This document shows positions 37,806-42,963 of a DNA stretch of 60,636 nucleotides, one piece after another. The notes under the pieces were generated by a model. That model had not been told where the DNA came from. It worked only from the letters and a program-made list of their open reading frames with translations, and made no database searches. The translations under genes were made by a program, and so were the position numbers. Position 1 is the stretch's first letter. The number at the start of each line of letters is the position of its first letter. The stretch spans positions 1-60,636 of the forward strand of contig JAKSLM010000012.1 in assembly GCA_024401225.1 (NCBI GenBank), read 5' to 3'. Source of the DNA: Bacteroidaceae bacterium. Its GTDB lineage: Bacteria; Bacteroidota; Bacteroidia; Bacteroidales; Bacteroidaceae.

Positions 37806-39065
37806 TTATCCTTTACTGCACAATTCTCTACACTCATCTTCCTTTAGCAATTCCCATGGCTTCATCTTGTCATAAATATTGTGCCATTCGTCAGTCAATG
37901 GGGTGTACTTGCCGAGGGTAAAATGCACTTTCTTATCTTCACTTATCGTGCTGTCAAGAATCTCGTAATTGCCATCTACAGACCCTTTCACCATAGGGAA
38001 CAGATGAGTTGCCTTGGCGAGTTTTGTCTTGGATTTAAGCGTTGTCGTGTATGTTGTTGCATGATGATTCATGAAGGCTTCACATTCTTCATCGGTTCGC
38101 CGTACATAGCAGGTCAAGAAGAACTTCTCTTTACCCTCAGTTTGCTCGACCATCGGATTAGTGTCGAACGGAAGAATCTCATAGATATTACTTGTATTCT
38201 CACACACTATGTCGTTATCTCCACCGAATAGATTGAGTTGTTCCGATGATCCCAAAGTCTTAAAGTCAACTATGTGTCGTTTCAAATCAGCTTTCACGCC
38301 CACATTATCCAGTTCCTCGCGTCTTGCCTTGCTCATCTGGCAAAACGTTTCCGATTGTTCTATACCTGCAAACCTACGGTCACAAAGGCTGGCTGCAATA
38401 CCTGTCGTTGAACTTCCGCTGAATGGGTCGAGAATCCAGTCACCCTTATCAGTACAAGAAAGGATGATGCGAGTTAAAACCGACAGAGGTTTCTGCGTAG
38501 GATGCTTGCCGCACGACTTCTCCCAACGCCCGATGGCTGGCAGTCGCCACACGTCCGTCATCTGCTTGTCATCGTTCAGCTTCTTCATCAACTCGTAGTT
38601 GTACTTGTGAGCCACCTTCTCGCACTTCCTTGCCCAAATGATGAACTCGGTCGAGTAAGTGAAGAAACGGCACGAAATATTAACAGGTGGATTTGTCTTC
38701 TGCCATGTTATCACATTCAGAATCTTGTATCCAAGTTCTGTAAGACAGTTTGCCACGGAGAAAATATTGTGATATGTTCCCGAAATCCAGATAGTGCCAT
38801 TGTCCCTCAACTTGTCGCGACACAACCTGAGCCATTCCATGTTGAACTCTTTCATCTCCTCGGGATTCCGTCCCTTGTCCCATTCGCCTTTATCCACGCA
38901 AACCACCTTACCGCTCTGTAGGCTTATGCCACCGTTGGAGAGGAAATAAGGAGGATCGGCAAATATCATGTTGAACTTGAAGCTAAATTCATTCAGCAAC
39001 TGAAACGTATCTCCATGAGCAAGAAGGAAATCGTTGTTTTGTGATTTATAGTAGGTTTCTATCAT
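37806..39065 (-). CDS. Beta-class N6-adenine DNA methyltransferase with C-terminal extension (DpnA-like)
   Basis: A 419-residue protein. Motif IV DPPY is at 37-40 and motif I DPFSGSSTTG at 213-222, with the HPTQKP segment (188-193) before it: the beta-class order of DpnA and similar methylases. The methylase core ends near residue 260, the whole length of DpnA (268). Here a further 157 residues follow, with VVxFLTCYVRRTDEECEAFM-like strands (cut) that I do not recognise. In S. pneumoniae DpnA modifies GATC also in single-stranded DNA; by position and class this should share the GATC target. Its ATG overlaps the endonuclease stop by 4 bases. Confidence 0.85.
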   Translation of the reverse strand: MIETYYKSQNNDFLLAHGDTFQLLNEFSFKFNMIFADPPYFLSNGGISLQSGKVVCVDKGEWDKGRNPEEMKEFNMEWLRLCRDKLRDNGTIWISGTYHNIFSVANCLTELGYKILNVITWQKTNPPVNISCRFFTYSTEFIIWARKCEKVAHKYNYELMKKLNDDKQMTDVWRLPAIGRWEKSCGKHPTQKPLSVLTRIILSCTDKGDWILDPFSGSSTTGIAASLCDRRFAGIEQSETFCQMSKARREELDNVGVKADLKRHIVDFKTLGSSEQLNLFGGDNDIVCENTSNIYEILPFDTNPMVEQTEGKEKFFLTCYVRRTDEECEAFMNHHATTYTTTLKSKTKLAKATHLFPMVKGSVDGNYEILDSTISEDKKVHFTLGKYTPLTDEWHNIYDKMKPWELLKEDECRELCSKG

Positions 39066-39895
39066 TCCATTTCTTGCTTTACTTCTTCAAGAAATTCAGG
39101 TAAGGTCGTAAAATTGTACATACGAGGGATATCATTGTAGGCTTCTGCAAGCTTATTTTTTGCACTATTCCATCCTTCACCATCGGTAATCCACACGAAT
39201 TCATATCCATTCACAGCATTTACGATAGGAGCAAGTTCGCGATAAGCACGAGCAACTTCATTCAGTTTTGAACCACCACCACTATAGAAATTTAACTCAA
39301 TAAGGAAGATGCGTTTCTTTGTTTTGATTACGAAATCGAATCGTTTCTCATCCTCACCAAGTACAGCTTTAATTTTAGGGAACTCACTTGAATAGACCTC
39401 CATTCTATGTGCAATTCCGTTATTGTTTAGTATGCGATGAAGTAATGTTTCGGTAATGTCGCCACTTCTGTTTTTGCGAGCATTTGTGTCAAGACCTGTC
39501 TCTACGCCAAACACATAATCAACGAGATCTTTTACATCTTTACGCATAAACACTTCTGACAAGCCTGTTTCCTCAAGGAACTTCATAACTCCATCTATTG
39601 AAGTGAACAAAGAGCTGATAAGGTAAGGTTTGCCATCATTATCTATAAATTTCTTCTTATCCTTGCGTCTTGTTGCGATAAGAATGTCCAGCACGTCAAA
39701 TGCTTTTTTATCTCTATTCCACAACATCGTTACTGCTTCTCTCAAATTTTCCTTACCCAAAAGAAAATTCAACGAGTTAAGGCTTAAAGCAATCTCGTTT
39801 ACATTGTTTCTGATCTTGTTGAAATCTGAGTAGAAATCAAGAGTCGCATTTGTCTCAGAAAGCTGAGTCATGAATTTATTGAAGTCCTTTTCCAT
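39062..39895 (-). CDS. DpnII/MboI-type restriction endonuclease (predicted GATC)
   Basis: A 277-residue enzyme. The catalytic region KRFDFVIKTKKRIFLIELNF gives Asp187, Glu200 and the variant third residue Asn202 (ExN in place of ExK), followed by YSGGGSKLNEVARAY; both match the DpnII family, which cuts unmethylated GATC. The N-terminal helical part is also family-like. It is sandwiched between the two methylases: its start overlaps the D12-type methylase end by 20 bases and its stop overlaps the DpnA-like start by 4. Target inferred from family. Confidence 0.88.
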   Translation of the reverse strand: MEKDFNKFMTQLSETNATLDFYSDFNKIRNNVNEIALSLNSLNFLLGKENLREAVTMLWNRDKKAFDVLDILIATRRKDKKKFIDNDGKPYLISSLFTSIDGVMKFLEETGLSEVFMRKDVKDLVDYVFGVETGLDTNARKNRSGDITETLLHRILNNNGIAHRMEVYSSEFPKIKAVLGEDEKRFDFVIKTKKRIFLIELNFYSGGGSKLNEVARAYRELAPIVNAVNGYEFVWITDGEGWNSAKNKLAEAYNDIPRMYNFTTLPEFLEEVKQEME

Positions 39896-40802
39896 TATAG
39901 GTAGCTTTTATATCTTCGTAGTTATGTACAAGTATTTCTGTTAGTTTTCCTCTTTTTCTAGGGTTAGCATTGATACTCCTCGAAGCCCACACGCGTTCTA
40001 CTTGATATGCTTCGTACAGTACATCAAAGAAGTTGTCTGCCTCGTTCTTTCCCTTGCAGTCCGAATTGCTGAGCATGAACTTGTAACCTGCTTCGTTGAT
40101 ACGGTCACAGTACTCTTTCAGGCGAATCTGTGCATCATCGTTGAAGGGCTCCTTGGTGTAGTCGTTGAAACTGGATGTGTCACTCAGAGGACGATAAGGA
40201 GGATCGAAATAGAAGAGCGTGTTGCCGTGAGCATATTGGAATGTCGCTTCGAAATCACCGGTTAATATCTCCACACGTTGCAATAGTTCGCTATCCTTGC
40301 GGATGGTCATCGGGTCGCAAATCTGTGGATGAATGTATTTGCCGAAAGGTACGTTGAAGAATCCTTTCTTATTTACTCGATAAAGCCCATTGAAGCATGT
40401 ACGATTGAGGAAGAAGAACTTGGTGGTGTTCTCTATCGGGTCAAGATTCTTCTCATTGTAGCGGTCGCGAGCGGCAAGGAAAAACTCCTTGCGTGCCTCC
40501 TCCGTCTGTAGAGCGTTGTAGGCATCTTGAATGTCCTGAAGGGACGCAATCAGTTCCTCGGGATTGTCCTTGACGGTACGGTAGCAGGTGGTCAAATCTG
40601 CGTTTACGTCATTGATTACCGCGTGCTGGATGTTAGGGTATCGCTGCAGCATGTAGAAGAGCATCGCACCACCGCCCACAAAGGGCTCGATGTAGGTGAC
40701 GTTCTCCCAATTACCAAAGTCAGCTGGTAACTGTGCATCCAGTTGTTCTATGAGTTGGCCTTTACCGCCCACCCACTTGATAAAAGGTTTTGCTTTTGAC
40801 AT
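39876..40802 (-). CDS. D12-class (Dam/DpnM-type) N6-adenine methyltransferase
   Basis: A 308-residue alpha-class DNA adenine methylase. FIKWVGGKGQL (7-17) is the D12 N-terminal signature, motif I is EPFVGGGAML (39-48), and motif IV is FDPPYRP (199-205). KLTEILVHNY near the end is also typical. Family members methylate A in GATC and protect host DNA from DpnII. It is the first gene of the operon, so modification is made before restriction. The 640-base region upstream holds a set of structured elements described separately. Confidence 0.92.
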   Translation of the reverse strand: MSKAKPFIKWVGGKGQLIEQLDAQLPADFGNWENVTYIEPFVGGGAMLFYMLQRYPNIQHAVINDVNADLTTCYRTVKDNPEELIASLQDIQDAYNALQTEEARKEFFLAARDRYNEKNLDPIENTTKFFFLNRTCFNGLYRVNKKGFFNVPFGKYIHPQICDPMTIRKDSELLQRVEILTGDFEATFQYAHGNTLFYFDPPYRPLSDTSSFNDYTKEPFNDDAQIRLKEYCDRINEAGYKFMLSNSDCKGKNEADNFFDVLYEAYQVERVWASRSINANPRKRGKLTEILVHNYEDIKATYNGKGLQ

Positions 40803-40829
40803 AAATGAAAAGCGTATGCAAACGAGAAA

Positions 40830-40858
40830 GCCCCCTTCCCATTATTAGGAAAGAGGGC
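40830..40858 (-). terminator. Terminator/attenuator-like hairpin just before the DpnM-type methylase
   Basis: In the leftward RNA GCCCTCTTTCC (40858-40848) pairs over 11 positions with GGGAAGGGGGC (40840-40830), using two G-U pairs, loop TAATAAT, followed by TTTCTCGTTT. In the rightward RNA the two G-U positions become mismatches, so the structure belongs to the leftward transcript. Its 5' arm shares GCCCT with the 3' strand of the stem that closes element A, so only one of the two can form. Confidence 0.55.
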
Positions 40859-40932
40859 GTGGAAGAATTCCTGTTATTTATTCATGGCCTACCACAGCCT
40901 GTGTCAGACAACAATCGTCCATTCCACGCCCT
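40854..40932 (-). ncRNA. Structured RNA element A upstream of the DpnII-type operon
   Basis: Closed by a perfect 11-bp stem AGGGCGTGGAA / TTCCACGCCCT (40932-40922 with 40864-40854). Inside, TGTT/AACA pair around a core that reads leftward GTCTGACACAGGCTGTGG then TAGGCC. The core is shared with element B although the closing stems differ in sequence. GGC/GCC around TGTGGWAG may form a small inner hairpin. I do not recognise it as a known riboswitch or ribozyme. Confidence 0.5.
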
Positions 40933-40940
40933 AATATAAA

Positions 40941-41029
40941 GCGTGAACATCGTCGTCGTGACCTTACTGACACATATTATTCTGTAAGTGGTAGTTCTGA
41001 ATATAATCAGTTACGTCAATGATGTTCGC
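40941..41029 (-). ncRNA. Third long hairpin (element C) between elements A and B
   Basis: Read leftward, GCGAACATC (41029-41021) pairs with GATGTTC-(AC)-GC (40951-40941). Inside are TGAC/GTCA, CTGA/TCAG and TATATTC/GAATAATA pairs in nested order. It does not carry the GGCTGTGG core. Probably a further domain of the same leader RNA. Confidence 0.4.
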
Positions 41030-41139
41030 AAATCTTTTATCTATGCTTTGACTTCGTCTGTTTGTGATCTAATTAAATAGTTATTCTGCCAACACCATAA
41101 TAACAGATAATTTCAGTCTTTCTCTACAACACACAAAAA

Positions 41140-41220
41140 ACGTAGGTGTACATCTTTGTTGCTCACCGATTGAGGCCTTCCACAGCCCTTGGCAGAAAAC
41201 AAACAAAGTGACACCCACGT
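41140..41220 (-). ncRNA. Structured RNA element B with shared core and T6 tail
   Basis: Read leftward, ACGTGGGTGT (41220-41211) pairs with ACACCTACGT (41149-41140); the one non-Watson-Crick pair is G-U in this strand and A-C in the other. CTTTGTT/AACAAAG forms an inner 7-bp stem (41208-41202 with 41160-41154). The core CTGCCAAGGGCTGTGG then AAGGCC matches that of element A. TTTTTT follows directly, as after a terminator stem. Confidence 0.5.
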
Positions 41221-41243
41221 AAAGTATGTAGATACACCCTAAA

Positions 41244-41278
41244 GTGTGCTAGAAGACTATAACTAGTCTTCAGCACAC
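41244..41278. terminator. Strong hairpin (element D) at the head of the structured region
   Basis: GTGTGCT-ag-AAGACT-ATAACT-AGTCTT-c-AGCACAC: 13 paired positions with a small asymmetric interior loop. It may terminate transcription of the small gene at 41443-41643 (leftward continuation ...CACACTTTAGGG) or be part of the leader. Confidence 0.5.
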
Positions 41279-41442
41279 AAAGGATGCTTGTACTGCATAC
41301 CTTATAGGCATCATCTTCTGCTATATTTTTGACTGCCAATTTGAATGTGGAAGTTTCAATCGGTCAAAACAGGCATCAATGACGCTTTTAAAATATGTTG
41401 TGTTTCATCAGTTTCATGCCATAAGAAACATCGGGCAGTTTT

Positions 41443-41727: not shown

Positions 41728-42288
41728 TTACACTTCGATATTATTCAATTTTAATGAGTTTCTATATAACTTTAAATCAAAAAACATCTGTCGAGTAGAA
41801 TCCAACGCATCAAGCATTGTGAAGTATTCGAAGTCATTCTTTTTGTAAAAATCAGTTGCTTTTGCATACGCATCAACTGTTAGGAATCTGCAACCCGCTA
41901 TTGATGTGAATACCAAGGAGGTCTTTATAAAATCCATTATCTGCGAACCTAAACCACATTTTGCATATTCTTCAGAAACGGCTAAACGGCCAATTTTCAT
42001 ACAAGGGTAGGTCTTACGTCTTTTGCGATTGACGATGTGACGATTTATCCTGTTCCAGATGCTCTTGTTAAGCGGGTCGTACGCCACTTTGTCATTCAGA
42101 AGAGTGTAATACGCAACTGTTTTATTCGATTTGGGTTCAACAAATAAATATGTCACCGACATCATTTCATCCATTCCTTCCTTTGCATCCTCTATGAGAA
42201 ATGCATTCAAGTCATCATCTTCGCAATGAAATGGCGGAATCTCGAAGTCGGGAGACAATTTTATGTATCTTAATTCTGACAGTTCCAT
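41728..42288 (-). CDS. GNAT family N-acetyltransferase (possible toxin of a TA pair)
   Basis: A 186-residue GNAT enzyme. The acetyl-CoA-binding region is visible as IGRLAVSEEYAKCGLGSQIM (about 100-119), where a QxxGxG/A-type loop is expected; here it is KCGLGS. YAKATDFYKKNDFEYF is the usual C-terminal motif. The N-terminal EIPPFHCEDDDLNAFL stretch is typical of GNAT proteins paired with small antitoxin-like genes. It follows a 52-residue gene by 4 bases. Targets in such pairs can be aminoacyl-tRNAs, but an ordinary small-molecule acetyltransferase is not excluded. Confidence 0.75.
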   Translation of the reverse strand: MELSELRYIKLSPDFEIPPFHCEDDDLNAFLIEDAKEGMDEMMSVTYLFVEPKSNKTVAYYTLLNDKVAYDPLNKSIWNRINRHIVNRKRRKTYPCMKIGRLAVSEEYAKCGLGSQIMDFIKTSLVFTSIAGCRFLTVDAYAKATDFYKKNDFEYFTMLDALDSTRQMFFDLKLYRNSLKLNNIEV

Positions 42289-42292
42289 TGGC

Positions 42293-42451
42293 TTATACAG
42301 GGAAAGTAGCTATAGCTTTGATTGCTTCGTAGTTGCGAATCATACGCTCGCATACTTCCTTGCTAAGTGGCTTAGGATTGGCTATCATCTGCTCAAAACG
42401 ACGCGCATCTGCACCGTAGAGCGTTGGAGTTTCTTTGATAGGTCTTGCCAT
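42293..42451 (-). CDS. Small putative antitoxin or partner protein of the GNAT enzyme
   Basis: A 52-residue protein starting MARPIKETPTLYGADARRFE. The frame is open 11 codons further up but the -7 box at 42482 and the protein-like start favour 42451. Predicted all-helical. It resembles short proteins that precede GNAT genes in Bacteroidales genomes (from memory); they do not look like the ribbon-helix-helix antitoxins of TacAT. The 4-base gap to the GNAT gene implies translational coupling. Confidence 0.6.
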   Translation of the reverse strand: MARPIKETPTLYGADARRFEQMIANPKPLSKEVCERMIRNYEAIKAIATFPV

Positions 42452-42481
42452 AAGACTATTCGTTTTATACGTTTTATTATG

Positions 42482-42489
42482 CAAACATA
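42482..42489 (-). promoter_or_regulatory. -7 box (TATGTTTG) for the small-protein/GNAT pair
   Basis: The leftward strand reads TATGTTTG, 31 bases before the ATG at 42451. Confidence 0.6.
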
Positions 42490-42663
42490 CTAATTTTAAT
42501 TCATAATCAATAAGAAATCATCACTTTTTAATTATTTTTTTTACAATTATGATGTAATTTCCTATATTTTGCCACTCAAGGCATGAAATTCGCACATTTA
42601 TGTGTACCGCTTCTATATGACCACATAATTGTTGTATACACAGTATACAAAAGTATACAAAAG

Positions 42664-42697
42664 AAAAACTCCCAACCTTTAACAGGTTAGGAGTTTT
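42664..42697 (-). terminator. Intrinsic terminator after tRNA-Lys
   Basis: AAAAACTCC-C-AACCT / AGGTT-A-GGAGTTTTT forms a 14-bp stem with one mismatch and a short loop, ending in a T-run in both directions. It starts five bases after the tRNA 3' end. Confidence 0.85.
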
Positions 42698-42701
42698 TCT
42701 G

Positions 42702-42854: not shown

Positions 42855-42862
42855 CAAAGGTA
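42855..42862 (-). promoter_or_regulatory. -7 box (TACCTTTG) for tRNA-Lys
   Basis: The leftward strand reads TACCTTTG, giving a transcript with a leader of roughly 70-75 bases before the tRNA 5' end at 42774. Confidence 0.5.
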
Positions 42863-42963
42863 AGGAGTTTTTCTTGAACTACAAAGAATTTAGGGAGTTT
42901 TTTTGCATATTGAAACAAGAATGAGTTTAAATTGCTACTTTCGCTCCCTTCTTTCTGTATGAC

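Follow-up and report, generated by a model that had tools for sequence, protein, structure and literature searches.

Two probable leader RNAs upstream of a DpnII-type system

The window analyzed here, a 60,636-nucleotide stretch of a Bacteroidaceae bacterium genome (GCA_024401225.1, contig JAKSLM010000012.1), encodes on its minus strand a D12-class adenine methyltransferase (39876-40802; Pfam MethyltransfD12, 1.4e-59), a DpnII-type restriction endonuclease (39062-39895; Pfam DpnII, 1.6e-91), and a second DNA methyltransferase (37806-39065; Pfam N6_N4_Mtase, 3.2e-55). Ahead of the D12 gene lie two hairpins, element A (40854-40932) and element B (41140-41220), both found where the initial annotation had placed them. 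Element B folds to −41.0 kcal/mol on the minus strand (z −5.1), as compared to −24.3 kcal/mol on the plus strand (z −2.0); the corresponding values for element A are −33.1 (z −3.6) and −28.1 kcal/mol (z −3.2). The closing stems were likewise as described, 11 bp in element A (40932-40922 with 40864-40854) and 10 bp in element B (41220-41211 with 41149-41140), the latter with a single G·U pair on the minus strand. Farther upstream, also on the minus strand, are a GNAT acetyltransferase gene (41728-42288; Pfam Acetyltransf_7), a preceding 63-aa ORF with no Pfam match (42293-42484), which together look like a toxin-antitoxin pair, and, upstream of the whole restriction-modification block, a tRNA gene (RF00005; 42702-42774) flanked by inverted repeats (42661-42700 and 42856-42875), a region that could be an integration site.

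The initial annotation had described elements A and B as two structured elements with the same core. The shared strings, CTGnCA and GGCTGTGGWAGGCC, are indeed present, but rather than forming a free-standing core they are two strands of long-range helices, namely CUGCCAA:UUGGCAG and UGUGGAAG:CUUCCACA for element B and CUGACACA:UGUGUCAG and GUGGUAG:CUACCAC for element A. Both elements are the final hairpins of much longer RNAs, which extend to ∼41401 for element B (RNA I) and ∼41027 for element A (RNA II). The common core is explained by similar docking sequence used by both hairpins, and the unlike stems by membership in two different sub-families. In both RNAs, the terminal hairpin loop and both flanking strands pair with three segments located 60 to 190 nt upstream.

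RNA I occupies ∼315 nt (41086-41401, minus strand), from a 5′ closing strand to a hairpin past the U-tract; these ends were read off conservation in an alignment of 118 loci and represent a predicted extent. Alignment of upstream sequence revealed conservation extending far 5′ of element B, and the strongest mutual-information signals among the 118 aligned loci were the long-range helices. Helix A joins a 5′ strand (A5, ACCGATTG, 41357-41364) to the strand immediately 3′ of the apical stem (A3, CAATCGGT, 41172-41165), helix B joins the apical loop (TGTGGAAG, 41184-41177) to a 5′ segment (B5, CTTCCACA, 41346-41353), and helix C joins the strand immediately 5′ of the apical stem (C3, CTGCCAA, 41195-41189, corresponding to CTGnCA above) to a third 5′ segment (C5, TTGGCAG, 41333-41339). 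A closing helix, P0, is formed by ACAACAT (41395-41401) and GTGTTGT (41132-41126), the latter past the U-tract. RNA I also contains a conserved middle hairpin, GTGTGC...GCACAC (41244-41278); in a pair count over 20 sequences, its outer six pairs were 100% paired and its inner seven only 60%, a deficit attributed to misalignment. Element B, the terminal hairpin (41140-41220), is followed by the U-tract (41140-41135) and the post-U-tract hairpin (41086-41106), whose loop GGTGT (41096-41092; here S3) is an alternative partner for the 3′ strand of the element B closing stem (here S2). This S2:S3 pairing amounts to only 5 bp in the window copy.

RNA II (∼200 nt, 40826-41027, minus strand) is a compact relative with the same docking topology, situated between RNA I and the gene in 18 of 127 loci and ending in element A or its homolog. 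The A-B-C docking order of RNA I recurs in it: CTACCAC (40988-40994) pairs with the apical loop GTGGTAG of element A (40895-40889), and TGTGTCAG (40967-40974) with CTGACACA (40907-40900). The assignment of element A (40854-40932) as the terminal hairpin of RNA II is based on its fold and on a pair count over 17 sequences. Directly ahead of the gene, sequence and forced-fold energies point to a terminator-like hairpin, GCCCTCTTTCC/GGAAGGGGGC followed by TTTC (40826-40858), which has GCCC in common with the element A closing stem. On this reading, the 3′ strand of that closing stem doubles as the base of the terminator-like hairpin, immediately upstream of the start codon of the methyltransferase gene. 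Forced folds placed the two states near balance, with mean energies of −38.2 versus −34.4 kcal/mol across 17 sequences (−41.3 versus −40.3 in the window), and the closing stem was the lower-energy state in 16 of the 17, so that a terminator-first default is not given by energy.

Covariation and exchange of docking partners

Pairing was quantified in sets of divergent homologs. Across 20 RNA I sequences, 86.1% of cells were paired, with two-sided change in 38 of 64 pairs; across 17 RNA II sequences, 98.9% of cells were paired, with two-sided change in 12 of 36 pairs. No shuffle in 500 did as well in either case. The RNA I set represents 20 of 26 candidates, excluding L165, L169, and L174, which resembled a third loop class, as well as L160, L081, and L167, for which no criterion is given; the RNA II set represents 17 of 18, excluding L069, where the terminator pattern was not found. 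The initial annotation had taken stems that vary while staying paired as the mark of a selected RNA, and this pattern is seen within RNA I, whose closing stems vary with compensation. It does not extend to RNA II, whose closing stem (GGGCGUGG) is nearly constant among copies.

The docking helices were assessed by swapping partner strands between loci (118 sequences, 200 shuffles, best register within 4 columns per helix, with F shifted by 1 and the others by 0; one hardly pairing column of helix A was retained, and the alignment leaves out L108, L111, L154, L156, and five near-duplicates). Pairing within the own RNA exceeded the swapped maximum for each helix (A, 0.81 versus 0.58; B, 0.85 versus 0.64; C, 0.72 versus 0.50). 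Loop types change wholly among loci and the partner follows, as in UGUGGUAG/CUACCACA, UUUCCUAGG/CCUAGGAAA, UUUCUCAGG/CCUGAGAAA, and UUCCGACG/CGUCGGAA, among others. Where a genome carries two or more copies, 5′ strands pair better with the hairpin of their own copy than with that of a sister copy (A, 0.92 versus 0.63; B, 0.85 versus 0.61; C, 0.73 versus 0.48). P0 scored 13.88 as compared to a highest swapped mean of 13.04 (107 loci), and the S2:S3 pairing of RNA I, with compensation, 17.54 on average as compared to a highest swapped mean of 14.16 (117 loci); the S3 hairpin usually lies 40 to 55 nt past the closing stem in these 117 loci. An additional alternative helix between upstream GCAGAG and CUCUG of the terminator 5′ arm was weakly above control (0.878 versus a swapped maximum of 0.836) and is suggestive only.

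Two of these pairings recurred in a set of loci found through a different part of the RNA (see below): loop-to-5′-partner pairing scored 21.63 as compared to a swapped mean of 16.03 and a highest swapped value of 17.25 (58 loci), and S2:S3 pairing scored 16.46 as compared to a highest swapped value of 14.10 (56 loci). Comparison across loci demonstrates that the last hairpin of each RNA docks on a 5′ domain through three helices and that, in RNA I, a second conserved partner for the 3′ strand of the closing stem lies past the U-tract.

Homologs and distribution

When 45 genomes belonging to the same genus were searched with a sequence pattern, the same hairpin was recovered in other species, and reading and folding of its surroundings there showed long paired stems of differing sequence followed by T runs. 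A first covariance model (R1) was built from seven B-like hairpins, five of which precede restriction-modification genes, and its hits are therefore biased toward the B-like loop class. R1 matched 36 of the 45 genus genomes at E≤0.5 and 33 at E≤0.01, with at most eight rows per genome, a few of which are the opposite strand of one hairpin; at E≤0.01 it also had hits in 98 of the 301 family genomes, in 20 of 30 genera. A second model (R2), which additionally included the middle hairpin, matched 42 of 295 genomes from an order-wide sample at E≤0.001, including the own genome, and 2 of 296 in a phylum-wide sample, one again being the own genome; both of these large searches used filters under which weak matches are lost. 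Five copies at E≤0.001 are present in the own genome, and Xylanibacter ruminicola D31d and Prevotella sp. MA2016 are among the other carriers. Searching with a pattern restricted to the middle hairpin retrieved at least 118 stretches. Among the 80 matches listed, 68 were confirmed by the model (E≤1.4e-14) with a full 3′ hairpin; the other 12 comprised nine that are actinobacterial by title, which we take to be Thermoleophilia, and three that were partial, cut, or weak. Removal of 10 duplicates of earlier loci from the 68 left the independent set of 58.

None of the 4227 families of Rfam 15 reached its gathering threshold over elements A and B, the whole window giving only the tRNA elsewhere, and none did so in ten further loci spanning several loop classes; the best sub-threshold match near A and B was the PyrG leader (33.8 bits versus 65 needed). 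A known Rfam RNA was rejected on these grounds. A MITE or simple inverted repeat was likewise rejected, given the compensated stem variation and the partners far upstream. Integron attC sites are single-stranded DNA folds with conserved end boxes and an integrase. As far as the position and pairing of the conserved sequence go, here it lies in the middle and pairs with distant upstream segments, with U-G pairs on the RNA strand. By blastn, the window leader matched nothing in phage or plasmid records and the L053 leader nothing in plasmid records, and a phage or plasmid origin was rejected. The hairpin pattern occurred in two stretches of viral_contigs, of which one matched the model weakly (E 0.007, 51 nt) and one had no match at E≤0.01.

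In open-access PMC text on structured RNAs of Prevotella and Bacteroidetes and on methyltransferase leaders, no description of such an RNA was found; the available main text of PMC8040213 mentions Prevotella once, near uvrC, and restriction or methyltransferase never. The initial proposal of a selected, leftward-coded, and undescribed RNA is borne out by these searches, and none of the three outcomes that it had named as refuting occurred: homologs are plentiful, stems vary yet stay paired, and no Rfam family reached threshold. The RNA family can be regarded as real with as much certainty as comparative evidence allows, and from the same comparisons we infer a regulatory function for RNA I and RNA II.

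Genes downstream of the RNAs

The nearest downstream ORF (≥90 aa, ≤700 nt) was on the same strand as the RNA in 111 of 125 loci, on the opposite strand in five, and absent in nine; by the same criteria, the nearest upstream ORF was on the same strand in 43, opposite in 23, and absent in 59. In a forward-strand-only count, a first gene was present in 119 of 127 loci, 67 of which start 55 to 100 nt past the hairpin; the remaining eight loci were two weak hits (L108 and L111), four lacking any ORF within range, and two whose ORF was far away.

Approximately 42 of these 119 first genes encode DNA methyltransferases or restriction enzymes: 31 C5 methyltransferases, seven N6_Mtase, one D12, and two TdeIII endonucleases by Pfam, together with the MmeI-type enzyme of L017, the tallies being taken as disjoint, which was true for eight proteins rechecked. 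Other first genes encode, among others, acyltransferases, NusG-like antiterminators, and surface proteins; the Pfam families include Acyl_transf_3 (5), MBOAT (4), Hexapep (5), NusG (5), and LRR_5 (5), all Pfam tallies covering the 25 commonest families per set. Among 50 independent first genes, D12 (7), NusG (5), C5 (3), and N6_Mtase (3) were found. For comparison with background, 143 C5 genes occur in the 45 genus genomes (∼1 per 0.9 Mb), as compared to 16 C5 genes among the 62 first genes scanned at the genus level.

Of the copies in the own genome, the one in the window lies ahead of the DpnII-type system described above, with its D12 methyltransferase, DpnII nuclease, and second methyltransferase; another lies ahead of a TdeIII-type system, and a third ∼470 nt upstream of a C5 methyltransferase gene. 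A further RNA I copy of this genome (L317, C14) adjoins a divergently oriented Abi_2 gene (Pfam 2.2e-54).

A proposed termination switch

A hairpin end with a U-tract (at least five T in the 8 nt at and after the end) was present in 116 of 118 RNA I loci. Two features used to recognize an attenuator were found: a U-tract hairpin ahead of a same-strand gene (116/118 and 111/125 loci), and mutually exclusive pairings of the closing-stem 3′ strand with two partners, the latter based on co-variation in RNA I and, for the terminator overlap of RNA II, on sequence and energies only. A TAnnTTTG box, presumably the Bacteroidetes −7 promoter element, was found within the −330 to −190 stretch in 98 of 118 loci, as compared to 15 of 116 in the stretch above. 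In the RNA I copy of the window, the −330 to −190 stretch lacks this box, and this copy may be transcribed from a promoter farther upstream.

From these comparative data we infer that RNA I and RNA II are probably transcription attenuators. A cis-leader role is likely, and a termination switch is a well-founded proposal. As a whole, the reading we favor, and consider reasonably probable, is that elements A and B end two related tandem cis leaders acting as attenuators with docking and strand exchange. Under this proposal, the RNA I hairpin and U-tract would stop most transcripts; in the read-through (ON) state, the RNA I closing stem would give up its 3′ strand. Because the S3 partner lies past the U-tract, it cannot itself decide termination at that U-tract. 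For RNA II the read-through state would be the one in which the closing stem keeps its 3′ strand, such that the second terminator could not form. Docking would determine which state wins. The wide mix of downstream genes indicates no single ligand or metabolite, and the most plausible candidate for a trigger would be an UpxY-type NusG paralogue. The switch would tend to travel with the gene it controls and would serve genes that cells tend to vary, e.g., restriction-modification and surface genes.

Alternative explanations

A protein of this type could also account for the leader more directly, the RNA I fold serving as the recognition site of a NusG paralogue (UpxY or LoaP type) whose binding to the emerging leader would let polymerase run through terminators; in that case, the RNA would be a protein platform rather than a self-contained switch. 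There is precedent, in that UpxY is reported to prevent termination within the 5′ leaders of Bacteroides fragilis capsule operons, according to the available text of PMC7819879, and LoaP depends on a leader hairpin ahead of an intrinsic terminator, according to that of PMC12691694. UpxY/NusG-like genes are themselves first behind some RNA I copies (five of 119 loci, and five of the 50 independent ones, by Pfam NusG), although in most loci the first gene, the only position considered, is not a NusG paralogue. Moreover, the sequence of the docking helices is free to vary, a pattern that fits folding better than recognition of those strands by one protein, and the two-partner closing stem is left unexplained. 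We regard this explanation as possible but rather unlikely.

The RNA I copies could instead be a family of stand-alone small RNAs that act in trans, each having a promoter and a terminator of its own, and the downstream genes would then be incidental. The promoter-like box and the terminator-like end lie ∼320 nt apart, and several copies occur per genome. Incidental neighbors are difficult to reconcile with the strand bias of the nearest downstream ORF (111 same versus five opposite), its preferred spacing, and the enrichment of DNA methyltransferases downstream; the conserved structure also runs on past the U-tract. Stand-alone RNAs are, on this balance, improbable.

The mobility of the leaders bears on a third explanation, namely that the leader is mainly a recombination platform, a conserved structured DNA where gene cassettes swap. 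L056 and L068, from two species, occupy the same genomic site and are 91 to 99% identical upstream to the terminal hairpin, from which point they diverge and carry different downstream genes, and the apical loop of L056 does not match its own 5′ partner; the pair is a natural chimera with its breakpoint at the terminal hairpin. Six of the ten listed locus pairs alike over at least 200 nt upstream have no downstream match, three of the six being combinations of L055, L056, and L068. When equal 600-nt flanks of 60 loci were compared, 18 pairs were alike upstream only, but 52 were alike downstream only and five on both sides, indicating that the leader keeps its gene more often than its site, though coding DNA is easier to match and the downstream counts may partly reflect its conservation. 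These figures supersede a comparison with unequal flanks, in which some loci had little upstream sequence (216 pairs alike downstream and 28 upstream). Recombination at the DNA level would not need one-to-one matching of loop and partner, the G·U pairs mark an RNA strand, and no recombinase family is prominent among the 25 commonest Pfam families per set; a role chiefly in recombination is accordingly very unlikely.

A ribozyme or intron-like RNA, in which two copies of a GGGUGU strand would be alternative substrates of one guide strand, was considered because S2 has two partners (S1, its closing-stem partner, or S3) in guide-like fashion, and is extremely unlikely: no Rfam family matched at threshold over A and B in the window or in ten loci, and a group I intron, whose parts come in a different order from those of RNA I, was rejected together with other ribozymes on the order of parts.

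Relation to known systems

The attenuator reading invites comparison with other leaders. The UpxY leaders resemble RNA I in being Bacteroidales 5′ leaders with premature termination ahead of variable surface genes, and some RNA I copies precede upxY-like genes. They differ in that the available text of PMC7819879 describes no structured RNA of the RNA I kind and, as far as that text goes, in that RNA I also fronts restriction-modification and secreted-protein genes. The LoaP-dependent dfn leader, in the available text of PMC12691694, is similarly a leader RNA element ahead of an intrinsic terminator, but it is a small UNCG hairpin in Bacillus, whereas RNA I has ∼315 nt and three docking helices.

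Two further comparisons concern architecture. In the cobalamin riboswitch, the expression-platform hairpin docks by a loop-loop contact on the 5′ domain; RNA I likewise has a putative regulatory hairpin docking by its loop on a 5′ domain but lacks an Rfam match and docks via the apical loop and both flanking strands. EAR and put are processive-antitermination RNAs; like RNA I in its proposed role, they act in cis and are associated with polysaccharide operons (EAR) or with read-through of terminators, but RNA I has no Rfam match and appears to differ from them in position and architecture.

Restriction-modification systems must not switch on carelessly in a new host. In open-access PMC, no report was found of a structured leader RNA common to unrelated restriction-modification systems. 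Here, one RNA family of gut and rumen Bacteroidales precedes C5, HsdM-type N6, D12, MmeI-type, and TdeIII-type systems, and it also precedes genes that modify the cell surface; it apparently constitutes a large, uncatalogued family of folded leaders placed ahead of many unrelated genes as on/off switches. This raises the testable question of whether a common RNA switch sets defense and surface genes, and the family offers both a large, covariation-rich target for structural study and a means of marking accessory gene cassettes. More tentatively, and with considerable doubt, it may represent a new class of RNA switch in which the loop of a terminator hairpin and both of its shoulders are captured by a 5′ domain and the closing stem can exchange strands with a downstream partner, a plug-in module common to unrelated restriction-modification, phage-defense, and surface-variation genes, such that the anti-phage and surface repertoire would be set by one RNA-level mechanism, at some loci with two switches in series.

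Other segments between RNA I and its gene were also observed. In L059, L065, L132, and, in slightly varied form, L162, RNA II is replaced by a different conserved segment ('CTGACTAAACCATACTGACGAGCATCATTTCGCTTCTGAC...'), possibly a third leader module. L110 and L112 have in common a segment between RNA I and UpxY-like genes, 'AATAGCGTCTATTTCAA...GTCATTGACGTTATTGGACATCAGTAAGG', perhaps a further relative of RNA II.
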